Notes under the pieces: generated by a model
Told to the model about the DNA's origin: nothing
Database searches by the model: none
Seen by the model: the letters and a program-made list of their open reading frames with translations, nothing else
Shown: in pieces, positions 11,090 to 43,364 of the stretch
Layout: each line of letters opens with the position of its first letter
Position numbering within the stretch: the stretch's first letter is position 1
From: Thermoplasmata archaeon
Lineage (GTDB): Archaea; Thermoplasmatota; Thermoplasmata; Lutacidiplasmatales; UBA184
Assembly (NCBI GenBank): GCA_022750115.1
Contig: JAKIWI010000003.1
Location: forward strand, 36,927-100,926
Length of the DNA stretch: 64,000 nt
Reading direction: 5' to 3'
Program-made: the position numbers and the translations under genes

Positions 11090-13270
11090 GTGCGTCGCGC
11101 CCCGTCCGTGGTTCTCGGCCCCGAGGAGCGGGCCCGCCTGCGCCGCTGGAGCGCCGCGAGCGGGGGCGCCAGCGAACGGGCGTTCCGGGCGAGGATCGTG
11201 CTCCTCGCCGCCGAGGGGCGGCAGGATATCGAGATCGGCGTGGAGCTTCATCTCCATCGACTCACGGTCGCCCGCTGGCGGCAGCGGTTTCTCTCGCGAC
11301 GGATGCCGGGCCTCACGGAGAGGTCCCGCTCCCTGCGCCGCGGCGGGATCGCCCCGGAGCTCGTCGATCGGATCGTCCGGGCCGCGGGCGCTCCCCGCCC
11401 CGACGGCCGCCGCTGGACGACACGATCGCTCGCCCGCGCCCACGGCGTCAGCCACGCCACAGTCCATCGGCTCTGGAGTCTCCATGCGGTGCGACCGGCC
11501 GCCTTCGACACGTTCCCACGGCGCGCCGACCCGGCCCTGCCGGAGGCTCCGTGGGACGTCGTGGGAGTCTCGCTGAACGGCCGTTCGGCGGCGCTGGCGG
11601 TCACCCTGCTCCCGGTTCGCCCCGGGGAGACCTCCGTCGGTCGTTCGGTTGGACGTACCCCGCCCGCACGCCATGGGCCACCGTCGGAAATGGAACGGCC
11701 GCCCGGGGTGGAGGAGGCGGGCTCGGATCTCCTCGGTCCGTTCCTCGGCGTTCTCGCCTCCCGGGTCACTCCCCGCACCCGGGTGCAAGTCGTGGCCACC
11801 GCCCCTCTCGGCGAGACGGCGACCCTCGTCGCGCGCTGGCGGCTCCGTCACCCGAACATTATGGTCGAACTCGCACCGGACCCGGCGGGATGGCGTCGCC
11901 GTGCGGCCGAGCTGATCGGAGCGGTCGCTCGTCGCCCACGCGGGCAGGACCGGGGTCGCGGCCCGGCGGAAGCGGGCGGGGCGCTCGGCCGCATCCTCGC
12001 CGACTATCGGAGCGAGAGCGGGCCGTACGAATGGCTCGCGGGTCCCCGGGAGATCGCGGAGGGGGACGCCGTCTATCGGTTACGCTACGACCTTTCCGTG
12101 ACAGGTCACGCCGGGTTCAAACCCACCCCGCCGGTCCCCGATCCGGTGGCGCGCGCGGCGACCGGCGAGGAGTCGCTTCGGACCATGGCCCGGACCCTGG
12201 TGCGCCGCTACCTCCGGGTGAAGCCGGGCGAGCGGGTGACGATCGAGACGTGGACCGGAACACTCGGCGAGTCGAGCGCGATCGCCCTCGAGACCCTTCG
12301 GGCGGGCGGCCGCCCGATCGTCCTCTACCAAGACGAGCCCACCTACTGGGCCGCGACGACCGAAGTGCCCGCGCGCTTCCTCGCTCGCCTCGGCGAGCAC
12401 CAGAAGGCGGCGCTCGAACGGACCGATGTCTTCGTGAGCTTCTTCGGGCCCAGCGACCGCGAACGGTTCCACTCCCTGACGCCCGCGACGAGGTCCCGCC
12501 TCTCCGAGTACGGCGACGCCCTCTACCGGGCGGCGGCGCGATCCGGTGCGCGCGCGGTCCAGATGGCGATCGGCCGCGTGTCGCCCGCGTCCGCGAGGAT
12601 GTACGGCGTCGACACGGCCGAGTGGCGGGTGGAGCTCACCGAAGCGATGCGGGTCGACCCCCGGATCCTGGCCCGCCGTGCGAAGCGATTGACTCAGCGG
12701 CTCGCGAGCGGCGAGACCCTGACGATCCACCACGCGAACGGGACCCGCCTCGACCTCCGCCTGAACGGCCGTCGCCCCGCCGTCTCGGACGGCACGGTCC
12801 GCACGCCGGCGCGTGCGGGAGAATGGAACCTCGTCACCCTCCCCGCCGGGGTGGTGACGGTCGCGGTCGATGAGTCGGCCGGGGAGGGCGTGTTCCGCTC
12901 GAACCAACCGAGCTCGATCGGACTCTCGACGACGGTGGGACCGATGGCGGGGGGCCGGTGGACGTTTCGGAGCGGCCGGCTGGAACGGTTCGCCTTCGAC
13001 GTCGGGGACGAGCTGTTCCGGCAGAGCTACGAACGGGCCCCCGCCGGAAAAGACCGGCCCGCCGCGGTCTCGATCGGACTCAACGACCGGATCCGGATCT
13101 CGCCGCTCCTCGAGGATCAGGGCCTCGGCACCGTCTCCCTGAACATCGGGAGGAACGATTTCCTCGGAGGGAAGAACCGGGTCCCCTGGTGGGCCTGGCT
13201 GTTCCTGCGGGGCGCCGACCTGAGCGTGGACGGCGACGCCCTCCTGCGCCGCGGAGCTCTCGTCGAGTGA
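11090..13270 (+). CDS. IS630-like transposase body fused to M29 aminopeptidase-like domain, both lacking catalytic residues
   Basis: A 726-residue fusion in one uninterrupted frame. Residues 1-325 match IS630 transposases from end to end: two helix-turn-helix units (to ~135), the WDVVGVSLNGRSAALAV strand, the RVQVVATAP strand with the RWRLRHPNIMVEL helix-strand, and the C-terminal GPYEWLAGPREI. The DDE positions read Thr172, Thr237 and Ala273. Residues ~363-726 resemble M29 (aminopeptidase T/AmpS) proteins, beginning RTMARTLVRRYLRVKPGERV and ending LGTVSLNIGRNDFLGGKN. The family's metal-binding positions appear replaced: LPxGE reads LPAGV, GTxHxA reads GTVSLN, and HxD reads WAW. It therefore looks like a DNA-binding protein with a ligand- or peptide-binding domain rather than an enzyme; function is unknown. 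The PiT gene follows by 28 bases. Confidence 0.7.
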   Translation: MRRAPSVVLGPEERARLRRWSAASGGASERAFRARIVLLAAEGRQDIEIGVELHLHRLTVARWRQRFLSRRMPGLTERSRSLRRGGIAPELVDRIVRAAGAPRPDGRRWTTRSLARAHGVSHATVHRLWSLHAVRPAAFDTFPRRADPALPEAPWDVVGVSLNGRSAALAVTLLPVRPGETSVGRSVGRTPPARHGPPSEMERPPGVEEAGSDLLGPFLGVLASRVTPRTRVQVVATAPLGETATLVARWRLRHPNIMVELAPDPAGWRRRAAELIGAVARRPRGQDRGRGPAEAGGALGRILADYRSESGPYEWLAGPREIAEGDAVYRLRYDLSVTGHAGFKPTPPVPDPVARAATGEESLRTMARTLVRRYLRVKPGERVTIETWTGTLGESSAIALETLRAGGRPIVLYQDEPTYWAATTEVPARFLARLGEHQKAALERTDVFVSFFGPSDRERFHSLTPATRSRLSEYGDALYRAAARSGARAVQMAIGRVSPASARMYGVDTAEWRVELTEAMRVDPRILARRAKRLTQRLASGETLTIHHANGTRLDLRLNGRRPAVSDGTVRTPARAGEWNLVTLPAGVVTVAVDESAGEGVFRSNQPSSIGLSTTVGPMAGGRWTFRSGRLERFAFDVGDELFRQSYERAPAGKDRPAAVSIGLNDRIRISPLLEDQGLGTVSLNIGRNDFLGGKNRVPWWAWLFLRGADLSVDGDALLRRGALVE

Positions 13271-21143: not shown

Positions 21144-22138
21144 TCGCGCGCCTCTTCCGGGCGGAAGAATCGACCGAGCAGCAGCACGGCGACGACGTTC
21201 ACCACGACCGTGATCGCGAGCAGGACGAGCCCGAGCTCGAGGAGGGCGCTCTGCTCGAGCGGGGAAGTCGCGGCCGTCAGGAAGTCGTTCGCGATCCAGC
21301 TCGCGATCGTCTGTCCCTGGCTCAGGAGGGAGGTCGAGAGCGTGTTGTTGTTGCCGATGGTCATCGTCACCGCCATCGTTTCTCCGATGGCCCGGCCGAG
21401 GCCGAGGATGATCGCCGCGACGATCCCGCTGCGTGCGAATTGGAGGACCCCGACGCGGGTCGTCTCCCACTGGGTCGCGCCGAGGCTCAGCGCTGCTTCC
21501 CGCTGGGTCGTCGGGACGGCGACCATCGCCTCCCGCGAGACCGCAGAAATCGTCGGGATGACCATGACGGCGAGGATAATCCCCGCCGTCAGCTTGTCCG
21601 CGCCGAAGATCTGACCGGTGAACAGCCCGGTCCAACCGAGCTGGGCCCGCAGGTGCGGTTCCACGGTGACCCGCATGAACGGGACGAGGACGAACAGACC
21701 CCAGAGGCCGTAGATGACCGACGGGATCGCGGCGAGCATCTCGACGAGGCTCGCCATCGGATCGCGGAGCCACGGCGGGGCGAGCTCCGACATGAAGATC
21801 GCAATCCCGAGGCTGATCGGTACACCGAGGGCGATCCCGATCGCCGACGTGACGACCGTTCCTTCGATGAACGGGAGCGCCCCATAGAGCGGCGGGCGGG
21901 CGTTGGCGTTCCAGGTCGAATGGGTGAGGAACCCCGGACCAAACGCGGTGAACGCGAGCTCCGAGCGAAGGGTCAGCAGAACGGTCAGGACGGCCAGAGC
22001 GGCGAGTACTGCGAGCGCGATGCCGGTGCTCAACCATTGGAAGAGCGGGTCGCCCCACCGACGGAGCCACCCTCCGGCCCGGACGACGCGAACTGCCTCC
22101 GCGGCGGGCCCTGGCGCGAGCTCGAGGCCGGCAGCCAC
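21140..22138 (-). CDS. pstC: Phosphate ABC transporter permease PstC
   Basis: A 332-residue permease, partner of PstA. The family motif GIALGVPISLGIAIFMSELAP, the EAA loop REAALSLGATQWETTRVGVL and the PstC-typical RAIGETMAVTMTIGNN are present. It begins 17 bases after pstS and overlaps pstA, giving a tight pstS-pstC-pstA transcript. The N-terminus has about 25 extra polar residues before the first helix. Confidence 0.9.
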   Translation of the reverse strand: MAAGLELAPGPAAEAVRVVRAGGWLRRWGDPLFQWLSTGIALAVLAALAVLTVLLTLRSELAFTAFGPGFLTHSTWNANARPPLYGALPFIEGTVVTSAIGIALGVPISLGIAIFMSELAPPWLRDPMASLVEMLAAIPSVIYGLWGLFVLVPFMRVTVEPHLRAQLGWTGLFTGQIFGADKLTAGIILAVMVIPTISAVSREAMVAVPTTQREAALSLGATQWETTRVGVLQFARSGIVAAIILGLGRAIGETMAVTMTIGNNNTLSTSLLSQGQTIASWIANDFLTAATSPLEQSALLELGLVLLAITVVVNVVAVLLLGRFFRPEEARE

Positions 22139-34091: not shown

Positions 34092-35333
34092 ATGTGCGAT
34101 TTGGGAGCGTTCCGCCCGATTGGCCGGCGGCTTCGGACAGACGTGAACGACGCGACCGCGGAACGAAAACGGGCGGACAACGGCGCCGCTCCCGACCCAG
34201 CTCCGCGGTCCCGTCCGTTTCCGGGTCTCCACGTGGTCACGCGCGACCCGCTCTGCGCCGAGACGCCCCTGTCCCACCTGGACGAGTGGATCACGCCGAC
34301 CGAGCGGTTCTTCGTCCGGAGTCACCTTCCGATCCCGACGATCGACCCGAACTCCTGGCGGCTCGTCGTCGACGGCGAGGTCGACCGACGCCTCGAGATC
34401 GGCTTCGACGAACTCCGCCGCGAACGGACTCGCACCGTCGTGACGACGATGGAGTGCGCCGGCAACGGACGCAGCTCCGTCTACCCACCTGCCGAGGGCG
34501 TTCGGTGGACCCAGGGTGCCCTCGGCACCGCCCGCTGGACCGGCGTCTCGCTCGGGGACGTGCTCGCGAGGTCGGGGATCCGTCCGGGCGCGATCGAAGC
34601 GGTGTTCGAGGGAGCCGACCACGGCCGGGAACCCGAGGTCCCCGAGGAGCTGACCTACGCGATGAGCGTCCCGATCGTCAAGGCGGAGCACCCCGATACG
34701 ATCCTCGCCTTCGAGATGAACGGCGAACCGCTCACGGTGGCCCACGGATTTCCGGTGCGCGCCATCGTGCCGGGGTGGTACGGCATGGCGTCCGTGAAGT
34801 GGATCACGCGCGTCTCGCTAATCGACCACTCGTTCAAGGGATACTACCGAACGCGACCTTACACGTTCATCCATGAGGGCGACGACCCGAACGTCCTCCG
34901 CAAGCTCGTTACCACCCTCCAGGTCAAGTCGGTCATCACCGCCCCAGAACAAGGGGCCTCGGTCCCGACCGGCACCGTCGTGGTGCGAGGCGCGGCGTGG
35001 TCGGGAAACGCCGCGATCGCCCAGGTCGAGGTCGCCGTCGGAATTCCGGAAGACGCCGGGGGAACCGGGAGCTGGCAGACCGCGACCCTTGTCGGGCCCC
35101 GGACCCCGCATGCGTGGGTCCGATGGGAGCTCCCGCTCGAGTTCCCTCGTCCCGGGTACTTCGTGCTTCGGTCTCGGGCGACGGACGAACGGGAGGATAC
35201 CCAGCCCTTGCGCGCCGAATGGAACTTCCGCGGCGTCGCGAACAACTCGATGCACGCTGTGCCCCTGATCGTTCGCCTCCCCCCTGACGGCCCTCCGAAC
35301 GGGGGCCGGTTTCCCCGAGAAGCCAACCCCTAA
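34092..35333 (+). CDS. Sulfite oxidase-family molybdopterin enzyme
   Basis: A 413-residue oxidoreductase with the sulfite oxidase fold. The molybdenum-ligating cysteine is Cys122 in TTMECAGNGRS; GVRWTQGALGTARWTGVSL and the pterin-binding HGFPVRAIVPGWYGMASVKW follow. The C-terminal ~130 residues are the Mo-co dimerisation (Ig-like) domain (VRGAAWSGNAAIAQVEV). There is no signal peptide and no haem domain, so it is probably a cytosolic sulfite dehydrogenase or a related sulfoxide-type enzyme. The TSUP permease at 42.4 kb could export sulfite or sulfonates for the same metabolism. Start could also be GTG 34143. Confidence 0.85.
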   Translation: MCDLGAFRPIGRRLRTDVNDATAERKRADNGAAPDPAPRSRPFPGLHVVTRDPLCAETPLSHLDEWITPTERFFVRSHLPIPTIDPNSWRLVVDGEVDRRLEIGFDELRRERTRTVVTTMECAGNGRSSVYPPAEGVRWTQGALGTARWTGVSLGDVLARSGIRPGAIEAVFEGADHGREPEVPEELTYAMSVPIVKAEHPDTILAFEMNGEPLTVAHGFPVRAIVPGWYGMASVKWITRVSLIDHSFKGYYRTRPYTFIHEGDDPNVLRKLVTTLQVKSVITAPEQGASVPTGTVVVRGAAWSGNAAIAQVEVAVGIPEDAGGTGSWQTATLVGPRTPHAWVRWELPLEFPRPGYFVLRSRATDEREDTQPLRAEWNFRGVANNSMHAVPLIVRLPPDGPPNGGRFPREANP

Positions 35334-41077: not shown

Positions 41078-41253
41078 GCGGGGCAGTATGCCGAGGGGGG
41101 GATTCTCGTTTCGGTCGGGCGGGAGAGCCGCCCCTCCGTCCCGATGAGGACCGGCTCAGGGAATCGCCCGAAGGTGCGGGCGCGGCGGGACCGCTGGACT
41201 GGGGATCCGGAGCGACACGGCATGAGGCGGCGGAGCCGCCTTGTCCCATAAAT

Positions 41254-42225
41254 TCATATCTCATCCCCGCGGCGTCCGTGCGCCCCCCGGATCTCCCCGG
41301 ACGTGGCGGTCCACACGAACGTGGCGAGCGGGTCGCGATTGCGACGAATGTGCTCGCGAAGGGCGTACTTGAGACGGTGGGCGCTCGCCGACGCCCCGGG
41401 CCGGTCCTTCCGTCGGGAGAATCCGTCGATCAGACGGTCCATCAAGGTCAGCCCCACGCGATCTCGCGGCAGGGGATGGAGGTGGAAGCGGGGGTGACGA
41501 CTGAGCCAGTGGTCCACCTCGGGCGGAACGGGCGACATCCGGCTGTCGACGAGAAGATGGACCTCGAGGACCGACGGGGTCTCGCGGTCCATCATCTGGA
41601 GGAACGCGCGGAACTCCCGGCCTTGGTCAGCGGGGGGACGGATTCCCGAGGTGAGGAAACCGAGGGTGGGAGGGACGATCGAGCGCATCCGCTCATCCGT
41701 CGAGAACGCGACGGCCCGACCTGGAGGGTTGACGTAGAGGCCCACGAGGTCGGTCACCGTCTCCAGGAAGCCCATCCCCCGGTCCGAGCCCCGGGGCGGC
41801 CGACGCCTCGCACTGAGGAGCCCGTGAGTGTGGCAGATTCTCTGTACCGACGACTTGCTCATTCCGACACGCTGGGCGATGCCCCGGACCGAGGTCCGGC
41901 CGTCGGCCGAGCCTCGGACCTCCGAGACGGCGCTGAGCACCTCTTGGATCCGATCGGCGGCGATCGCCGGGGGGCGGCCCGACCGGGGGGCGTCGCGGGT
42001 GACGCCGGCGACCCCGTGGGCCAGAAATCTGTGGCGCCAGAGGGCGACCGTCACGGGATTCGTACCGAGCTCGCGTGCGATGACCGTATTCGGTGCCCCG
42101 TCCGAGGCCCGCAGGGCGATCCGAGCCCGCCGGGCCACCCGAGGGGGCGTGGACGGGGATTCGGCGAGGGAGAGCAGTTGGTGGCGTTGCTCCCAATGCA
42201 GCCTCACGGCGGCCGACTTCCGCAT
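41254..42225 (-). CDS. IS630-like transposase with shortened catalytic core (probably domesticated)
   Basis: A 323-residue protein homologous to IS630 transposases. Two helix-turn-helix units (ARELGTNPVTVALWRHRF; GIAQRVGMSKSSVQRICHTHG) precede an RNase H-like core with Asp177 (FSTDER), Asp227 (LLVDSR) and Asp263 in the place of the usual Glu (LTLMDRLIDGF). The stretch between the first two strands, which in IS630 holds ~45 residues ending in the FAALDVATG strand, is reduced to ~15. The same contraction is in the protein at 11.1 kb. No terminal inverted repeats are visible around it. ATG 42225 with a TATA box fits an expressed host gene. Function unknown, perhaps DNA binding. Confidence 0.75.
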   Translation of the reverse strand: MRKSAAVRLHWEQRHQLLSLAESPSTPPRVARRARIALRASDGAPNTVIARELGTNPVTVALWRHRFLAHGVAGVTRDAPRSGRPPAIAADRIQEVLSAVSEVRGSADGRTSVRGIAQRVGMSKSSVQRICHTHGLLSARRRPPRGSDRGMGFLETVTDLVGLYVNPPGRAVAFSTDERMRSIVPPTLGFLTSGIRPPADQGREFRAFLQMMDRETPSVLEVHLLVDSRMSPVPPEVDHWLSRHPRFHLHPLPRDRVGLTLMDRLIDGFSRRKDRPGASASAHRLKYALREHIRRNRDPLATFVWTATSGEIRGAHGRRGDEI

Positions 42226-42246: not shown

Positions 42247-42260
42247 CCATAAAATATGTA
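42247..42260 (-). promoter_or_regulatory. TATA box of the IS630-like gene
   Basis: cccataaaatatgt is the most AT-rich promoter seen here. It is centred about 28 bases before ATG 42225, supporting a leaderless start and rejecting the longer upstream frame to 42447. Confidence 0.55.
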
Positions 42261-42428
42261 ACTTTTGGGTCACCGGGGCGGCTTCATAAGGCGAGGACGC
42301 CCACGATGACCCATGGGACGTGCTGGACCCGCAGGCCGACCTCGTCGGCCAGCGCCTAAGCCCGCGCCGAGCGCCGTCGCCGCTCGGGGCGGACACCGCC
42401 AGACTCGTCCTCAGGAGAAGTAGGTCGT

Positions 42429-43364
42429 ATGGATCCGCTCGCGTCACTCGGTCTCGGACTGCTCGCCTTGGTCGCCGCGCTCATCAACGGCGCGGTCGGC
42501 TACGGCTTTTCGTCGATCGTCACGCCGATCGCCATCCTATGGTACTCGAACAAGGTCCTCAACCCGGCCCTCGTCATCGTCGAGGTCGCGGTCAACAGCA
42601 CGCTACTGTTCCGGGAGCGCCGGTACATCCGCCAGACGTGGGCGCGCGCCCGGCCGCTCGTCTCGACCCTCTTCCCGGGAGTGCTCCTCGGCACCATCGG
42701 CCTCGCCTACCTCGCTGTGAACGACGTGAAGGTGATCGTCTACGCGACGCTCCTCCCGCTCGTCCTGTTTCAGCTGGTCGGATTCTACCGCCCCCTCAAG
42801 AACGAACGCCGGGGCGGGATGGCCATCGGGCCCGGCATCGGGTTCCTGTATGCGCTCACGACGATCTCGGGGCCTCCGCTCGCCTTGTTCCTCCGGAACC
42901 AGGGGATGTCGAAGAACGAGTTCCGGTGCACCATCGCCCAGATCCGGGTCGCCGAGTCGTCCTTGACCCTCGCCACCTACTTCGTCTTCAGCACCCTGTT
43001 CGGGTCGAACCTGATCACACTCCCCTCCCTGAGCCTTCTTCCGATCCTCGTGATCCCGGTGCTCATCGGGATCCCGGTCGGGACGCTGCTCCTGCGGGCG
43101 GTCAGCCCCGAGTTCTTCCGGCGGTTCGTGATGTCCGTCGACGCGATCCTCGTCTCGTACGGCCTCTCGAGGGTCCTCGTGTCCCTCAAGTGGGTCTCCA
43201 ACGAGGTCGCCTACCTCGCGTTCGCGGCGGCGTTCGCGGTCATCGCGGGCCTCAGCTGGTTCTCCCTCCGGGCCGTCAATCAAACGACGGAGCCGCCGGG
43301 GGAGCTCGAGCCTCCCGAGCCGCCGGCGCGGTGGACGCCCGGGGAGCCGGCGGGGCCGTCCTGA
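42429..43364 (+). CDS. TSUP-family permease (TauE/SafE sulfite exporter-like)
   Basis: A 311-residue permease of about eight helices. LALVAALINGAVGYGFSSIVTPI near the N-terminus is the TSUP signature. A second repeat (FLYALTTISGPPLALFLRNQGMSKNEFRCTI) begins around 138. Family members export sulfite or sulfoacetate, or take up organic sulfur. The last ~25 residues are Pro/Glu-rich and cytosolic. Together with the sulfite-oxidase-type enzyme at 34 kb it hints at oxidised sulfur handling. It follows the divergent IS630-like gene by 200 bases. Confidence 0.8.
   Translation: MDPLASLGLGLLALVAALINGAVGYGFSSIVTPIAILWYSNKVLNPALVIVEVAVNSTLLFRERRYIRQTWARARPLVSTLFPGVLLGTIGLAYLAVNDVKVIVYATLLPLVLFQLVGFYRPLKNERRGGMAIGPGIGFLYALTTISGPPLALFLRNQGMSKNEFRCTIAQIRVAESSLTLATYFVFSTLFGSNLITLPSLSLLPILVIPVLIGIPVGTLLLRAVSPEFFRRFVMSVDAILVSYGLSRVLVSLKWVSNEVAYLAFAAAFAVIAGLSWFSLRAVNQTTEPPGELEPPEPPARWTPGEPAGPS

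Follow-up and report, generated by a model that had tools for sequence, protein, structure and literature searches.

An IS630-derived protein of Lutacidiplasmatales as a candidate regulator of sulfur genes, with putative operators resembling old transposon ends

Introduction

When a transposase gene is found as a single intact copy behind a host-like promoter, does it still belong to a mobile element, or has it been taken over by its host? This question is raised by an ORF in a stretch of 64,000 nucleotides of DNA (the window) from an acid-soil Thermoplasmata archaeon of the order Lutacidiplasmatales. The product of the ORF, which is related to the IS630 transposases, is here called the F protein, and the genome that the window belongs to is called G000 (Table 1). 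Conversion of a transposase into a transcription factor is a classic idea in eukaryotes, with Pax and SETMAR as examples.

Table 1. Features of the F locus and their positions in the window
Feature	Position	Strand	Remarks
Right inverted repeat, putative right TIR relic, TGTCCCATAAATTC	41242..41255	+	Overlaps the stop codon; found in at least 9 orthologues
F gene, candidate IS630-derived regulator, 323 aa	41254..42225	-	Bipartite HTH at about 10-135 and contracted RNase H-like core at about 152-312
TATA box of the F gene, TATTTTAT	42249..42256	-	24-31 nt before the ATG
Putative left operator, left TIR relic, TGACCCAAAAGTTA	42259..42272	-	At -46..-50 in 15/18 orthologues
TTCATAA, TATA-like, in the divergent promoter that faces TauE	42284..42290	+	11 bp from the operator
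TauE/SafE gene, coding for a predicted sulfite exporter of 311 aa; proposed target	42429..43364	+	PF01925, E 4.7e-22; divergent to the F gene

The F Protein

The Pfam matches of the F protein, HTH_23 (2e-14), HTH_29 and HTH_32, all lie within the first 130 residues. Against the NCBIfam model of IS630 (NF033545) the protein scores 78.4 bits, which is below the cut-off of 100, and only residues 32-179 are matched; a canonical IS630 protein from the same genus scores 241.8 bits and matches the Pfam domain DDE_3 with an E of 2e-21, while no Pfam match to DDE_3 is seen in F. Apart from one missing block, F is colinear with canonical members of IS630 (of the IS630-Tc1-mariner group), shares their HTH architecture and is 30-35% identical to them. 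The absence of this block had been noted already in a preliminary description of the window, and the alignment bears it out: about 44 residues are lacking between the first two catalytic RNase H strands, more precisely between the D177 strand and the helix preceding the D227 strand. In the AF2 model of the canonical protein the block makes up strands 205-218 and 224-229, a β-hairpin of the catalytic fold. This β2-β3 hairpin is absent from the AF2 model of F, which is of moderate quality (pLDDT 76, pTM 0.47) and contains an unreliable refolded strand at 157-166. The DN and SSWLN motifs of IS630 are also lacking.

The catalytic positions of the window protein are D177, D227 and D263, the last of these replacing the Glu of IS630, just as first described. 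Among the 18 orthologues presented below, the first Asp is invariant, residue 227 is D in 15, E in two and S in one, and residue 263 is D in 13, E in four and A in one. As judged from the alignment, this fits relaxed catalytic constraint rather than an active triad, and an intact triad on a complete RNase H fold is not found in the family. Because the hairpin is gone and the triad is eroded, F is very probably not a transposase.

When it comes to the N-terminal half, the model suggests a bipartite, paired-like DNA-binding domain, and the best Foldseek matches are the DNA-binding domain of SETMAR on the Hsmar1 TIR (TM 0.52), that of Tc3, Pax5/6 and Mos1. The target-normalised TM against 7s03, 1u78 and 1k78 is 0.46-0.52, and the VIA Z of 5.9-7.0 is below the level that is clear of unrelated helical folds. 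A sequence search of the PDB gave a best E of only 0.35. No TnpB match was found in Pfam or NCBIfam, and the fold of ArsR or CsoR was not recognised either, all above-cut-off Pfam matches being transposase-type HTHs.

Distribution and Descent

When 78 genomes of the genus were searched with a profile built from the short proteins, the matches separated cleanly into two classes. Orthologues were found in 18 genomes, one full-length copy in each, aligned without gaps at E < 1e-120 and containing neither stops nor frameshifts. The other class, starting at E 3e-64, consists of canonical or otherwise degenerate IS630 proteins, sometimes with stops, whose alignments are interrupted where F lacks the block; canonical IS630 genes and the F family coexist in the genus. 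A pattern scan of a GTDB contig collection comprising 84,980 species found the short form only in 12 MAGs named "Thermoplasmata archaeon". One of these, AcS4-93, appears in the paper that named the order Lutacidiplasmatales (PMC9287336).

The F family is monophyletic with an SH-aLRT of 100 and a long stem. Its subclades {G018,(G024,G028)}, {G029,(G085,G092)} and {G065,G078} reappear in the rpoB tree, which suggests that the gene has been inherited vertically, with losses. The overall dN/dS is 0.14-0.31 and is similar in the HTH part and the core; the core must therefore still be needed. It should be kept in mind that the genomes are MAGs and that the carrier clades are not independent of phylogeny. 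The neighbourhood of the gene varies between subclades, and synteny is kept inside them. TauE is the divergent neighbour in four genomes (G000, G025, G065 and G078), six have the pst operon next to the gene, mostly with an APS kinase gene nearby, and the others have other neighbours. The position beside TauE is kept even between F proteins that are just 47% identical.

The proposal that the ORF belongs to a lineage-specific family of exapted transposases thus holds for F: the family is monophyletic, is restricted to one genus in the collections searched (18/78 genomes), and consists of intact, single-copy, vertically inherited genes that are under purifying selection and have lost mobility. 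Exaptation from an IS630 transposase is very likely.

The same proposal had included the fusion protein encoded at 11.1 kb (P0002). Its core is indeed contracted, but in the tree it is placed in another clade than F, and a single clade is not rejected (AU test, p 0.41), so that the two may or may not go back to a single loss event. Fusions of this kind, in which an M29-peptidase-like part is joined to a degenerate IS630 half (11090-13270 (+) in the window; frames of 726-968 aa), occur once each in about 12 genomes of the genus and may be another maintained family. Three promoters that were examined have a common GAACTTT/ACTATTT-GGG element, resembling the reverse of the F operator. A further set of degenerate IS630-like ORFs in the genus (L021, L023-L026, L029 and L030), with contracted cores and lost triads, forms a separate clade together with the M29 fusions; these are possibly further exaptations.

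Inverted Repeats and Promoter of the F Gene

The element TGACCCNNAAGT followed by a TATA box is found upstream of 15 of the 18 orthologues at a constant distance of -46 to -50, with a summed score of 306 compared to 136-149 in shuffles. It is kept between F proteins of only 41-61% identity, and is not seen at the gene's own promoter in G024, G028 and G029. The full pattern of operator and TATA box, allowing 0 mismatches, occurs once in the 2.1-Mb genome, at the F gene. The position of the TATA box is compatible with a leaderless transcript, in agreement with the host-like promoter reported earlier.

It had also been stated that no inverted repeats flank the gene, and this has to be revised. 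Scanning the window with a matrix trained without the window's genome gave four hits above 12 bits, and the two best of these are the flanks of the F gene, in inverted orientation (Table 1), the right one within about 15 bp of the stop; a shuffled window yields between 1 and 5 hits, of whatever kind. A matrix made from host-promoter sites unlinked to any F gene end recovers the right repeat of G000 with p = 0.001. The reverse complement of the operator is found directly 3' of the F stop codon in G000, G078, G065, G025, G094, G014, G016 and G095, while in G018 it falls in the final part of the coding region. Short inverted repeats are thus present at both ends in G000 and at least eight more genomes, at the places relative to the gene where IS630 has its TIRs, and the right repeat is absent in at least seven of the 18. 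A simple test of identity between the left and the right repeat was weak for single genomes, with a combined p of 1e-4, the matrix tests being clearer. The repeats accompany the gene through different loci, and TA duplications at both ends are not found. Of the two flanking features that had been proposed for a check of the homologues, the inverted repeats were found and the TA duplications were not.

The left element is enclosed by two divergent TATA boxes, of which the one directed at the neighbouring gene lies 9-11 bp away, and the spacing from the TTCATAA-type box to the operator is equal in G078, G065 and G025. A frame of 36 codons (42312-42422 (+)) starts about 22 bp past the divergent TATA-like element and ends just before TauE; it may encode a leader peptide or have arisen by chance.

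The canonical IS630 genes of the genus have CTAGTG-type left ends at about -56, with clear pairs of ends only in G095 and G022. Generic matching of inverted repeats gave only chance matches for the canonical TIRs, and the CTAGTG tips were obtained by reading the ends directly. The operator core GGACCGTAA is the left-end tip TAGTGGACCGTAACTGA of the canonical element G082b (p 0.001). With the matrix from host promoters away from F genes, the canonical left ends of G082a and G082b gave p 0.004 and p 0.001, respectively, and all canonical ends combined gave p 0.0035, a figure with few canonical elements behind it. The F repeats thus look like old transposon ends without a TA duplication, a homology that is supported by these sequence comparisons but not proved. 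The window genome's canonical IS630 copy (L002, G000:C19:196669-197708) has kept the DN and ERWF motifs, seems to be broken near the N-terminus, and shows only the CTAGTG left end.

Sites at Host Promoters

The regulon scans were pattern searches. The strict pattern, TATAA-N11/12-GRMCCNNAA, gave eight hits in the 18 carrier genomes, distributed on pst (four), F promoters (two), a rhodanese-SUOX operon and a SUOX gene, and five hits in 20 genomes without a detected F, of which G100 accounts for two. Of the promoter regions in F contexts, 173 in number, only nine score at least 14: those of TauE (four), pst, APS kinase (cysC; two, where the site is the operator shared with the F gene) and MBL-rhodanese in G024 and G028. 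At host promoters the element lies 10-12 bp upstream of the TATA box, also at loci far from the F gene. Domain calls support the identities of PstS, APS kinase, sulfite oxidase, rhodanese and TauE. Computationally, putative cognate sites thus recur at host promoters; comparisons of F-carrying and F-less genomes are confounded by phylogeny.

TauE genes next to F have the operator and lack a proximal TATA box, while TauE copies not beside F mostly have a proximal TATA-like element without a comparable operator. Six genomes in which F is adjacent to pst have the element in the same register at the pst promoter. It is also found in trans, at the pst promoters of G085, G086, G092 and G035 (p 0.005 each). 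Genomes without a detected F have it at one of 17 pst promoters (G100, 71% complete), and when only the sites in trans are compared with the F-less genomes, Fisher's test gives p 0.09.

In seven carrier genomes the element is present at a rhodanese(-SUOX) or SUOX promoter, always with one spacing to the TATA box. In G035, G086, G016 and G087 it is found at -53/-54 of a rhodanese-SUOX operon, and in G028 and G092 at the same distance before a rhodanese gene whose partner is past the contig end or not seen. A second rhodanese copy in G035, G016, G087 and G092 lacks it, as do the rhodanese promoters of 11 genomes without a detected F (p 0.013 for carriers versus F-less genomes). The operon form is found in carriers only. 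G088, which is 91% complete and has no detected F, has a strong site before SUOX; here (L241) the F-type site CGACCCATAAATAC precedes the matched SUOX segment by about 330 bp, and a TATA-like element lies at a distance of 12 bp from the site. The MBL-rhodanese gene that carries the element in G024 and G028 resembles MBL-rhodanese and persulfide dioxygenase proteins of solved structure (3tp9, E 2e-59; ETHE1, E 1e-12), and is taken to encode a persulfide dioxygenase.

In the window's own genome the pst and SUOX promoters have no site, and the clear targets are TauE and the F gene itself. At 21176-22018 (-) the window has a segment that resembles PstC, the permease of a transporter of the phosphate type, and no operator was found at its PstS promoter. 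A sulfite oxidase-like gene at 34236-34715 (+), about 7 kb from F and 53% identical to the target in G011, has no recognisable operator. Going beyond the preliminary description, the old terminal repeats seem now to serve as regulatory sites for sulfur and phosphate genes of the host.

Proposed Function and Alternatives

It seems quite probable that F is an exapted and autoregulated transcription factor which acts on sulfur genes through operators derived from transposon ends. When the parts of this reading are taken separately, F is likely to be a regulator, and a sulfur regulon under its control is probable. F would then be a vertically inherited, catalytically defunct IS630 descendant that regulates transcription by binding DNA, where the Pax/Tc1-like bipartite HTH is predicted to recognise a 13-14 bp element with the consensus YGRMCCNNAAGTT, originating from the TIR of the ancestral transposon. 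In the promoter of F this element stands very close to the TATA box, and binding would probably repress the F gene. In front of the target genes its orientation is fixed, and its distance upstream of the TATA box is roughly one helical turn; F might there act as an activator touching TBP/TFB, or as a co-repressor, or give tuned repression. The right inverted repeat may take part in looping or serve a downstream promoter. The candidate targets, as given by the sites, are the TauE sulfite exporter, the rhodanese-sulfite oxidase operon, the MBL-rhodanese persulfide dioxygenase and the pst phosphate operon.

An element common to F and other promoters could also mean that F is a member of a sulfur/phosphate regulon and not its controller, the element being bound by an unrelated regulator. 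Genomes without a detected F that have the element at pst (G100) or SUOX (G088) agree with this. However, the element forms inverted repeats at both ends of F, at the positions that TIRs occupy in related transposons, and is similar to these TIRs; the TIR-binding type of domain is kept under purifying selection; and F-less genomes otherwise contain hardly any match to the strict pattern. We therefore regard a separate regulator as unlikely.

The inverted repeats at both ends of the gene, its presence at different loci in different subclades, the invariant first Asp and the mostly acidic third residue might instead indicate a compact IS630 variant that is still mobile, a 1.03-kb element with short TIRs and a reduced DDD core. 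Against this, F is single in 18/18 genomes, no TA duplications are seen, the place beside TauE is conserved despite the divergence of the proteins, the catalytic hairpin is gone, the second Asp or the third acid is lost in some of the proteins, and the subclades of F match those of rpoB. A search for multiple copies, for TA duplications and for intact catalysis gave no support to an active element. Near-identical copies with terminal repeats had been named in advance as the mark of such an element; the repeats are there, but the copies are not. Continued mobility is thus quite improbable.

That the element always lies beside TATA boxes would be expected also if it were a general promoter or BRE feature of the genus unrelated to F, but this is very improbable when the promoters scoring at least 14 all belong to TauE, pst, cysC (shared with F) or persulfide dioxygenase, the full pattern occurs once in 2.1 Mb, and TauE, pst and rhodanese promoters of F-less genomes mostly lack it. 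Finally, although some of the canonical IS630 copies of the genus show decay, with internal stops and truncations, the notion that F is a decaying pseudo-transposase, its sites and synteny being leftovers, is already contradicted by the selection signal, the intact reading frames, the operator conserved between divergent F proteins and the sites in trans, and can practically be set aside.

Comparison with Known Systems

SETMAR is a eukaryotic exapted protein that retains TIR recognition. Like SETMAR and Pax, F may have kept the bipartite paired-like HTH of a Tc1-type transposase, in its case for a predicted site-specific DNA binding. F differs from these in being archaeal, in that a whole shortened transposase is kept rather than a domain fusion, and in the fixed register of its sites with archaeal TATA boxes.

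BigR and CstR belong to the ArsR and CsoR families. Both are persulfide-responsive repressors, and in bacteria BigR controls a TauE-related transporter together with a sulfurtransferase/dioxygenase (PMC5823870). Their targets are similar to the candidate targets of F, i.e., a TauE-type sulfite exporter, an MBL-fold sulfur dioxygenase and a sulfurtransferase, with pst being an addition in F. F is, however, not homologous to either, and the conserved cysteine pair is absent; the only cysteine of the window protein is unconserved among the orthologues. Cysteine-based sulfur sensing of the BigR/CstR type was thus rejected, and the signal must therefore be different from that of BigR.

The prokaryotic precedents found in the literature are co-opted TnpB nucleases and phage regulators, and full-text searches returned no archaeal regulator derived from a DDE transposase. 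The TldR proteins are RNA-guided transcription factors derived from TnpB (PMC13418256). As is predicted for F, they are prokaryotic transposon proteins with a dead nuclease that have turned into transcription regulators; while TldR is guided by RNA, the DDE transposase-derived F is expected to read its TIR-like site directly. Ner/SfsB is a co-opted regulator from phage Mu (PMC8987985), and thus another DNA-binding protein of a mobile element recruited for host metabolism. Ner was a regulator already in the phage, while F is derived from the transposase itself.

Biological Implications

Lutacidiplasmatales is an uncultivated order of soil archaea whose members have been suggested to oxidise sulfite (PMC9287336). 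If our reading is true, F is a proposed regulator for the sulfite/thiosulfate metabolism of these organisms. We lean towards a route in which IS630 catalysis was lost, the terminal repeats became operators, and copies of the operator came to lie at sulfite/persulfide and phosphate promoters not linked to the gene, the outcome being an archaeal sulfur-oxidation regulator derived from a DDE transposase. The intermediates would still be visible as related IS630 elements with their ends, a gene that was exapted together with its two old ends, and host promoters in which the end sequence keeps a fixed register with the TATA box. The model in which transposon ends become a regulon would then be directly testable with one protein and a few DNA probes.
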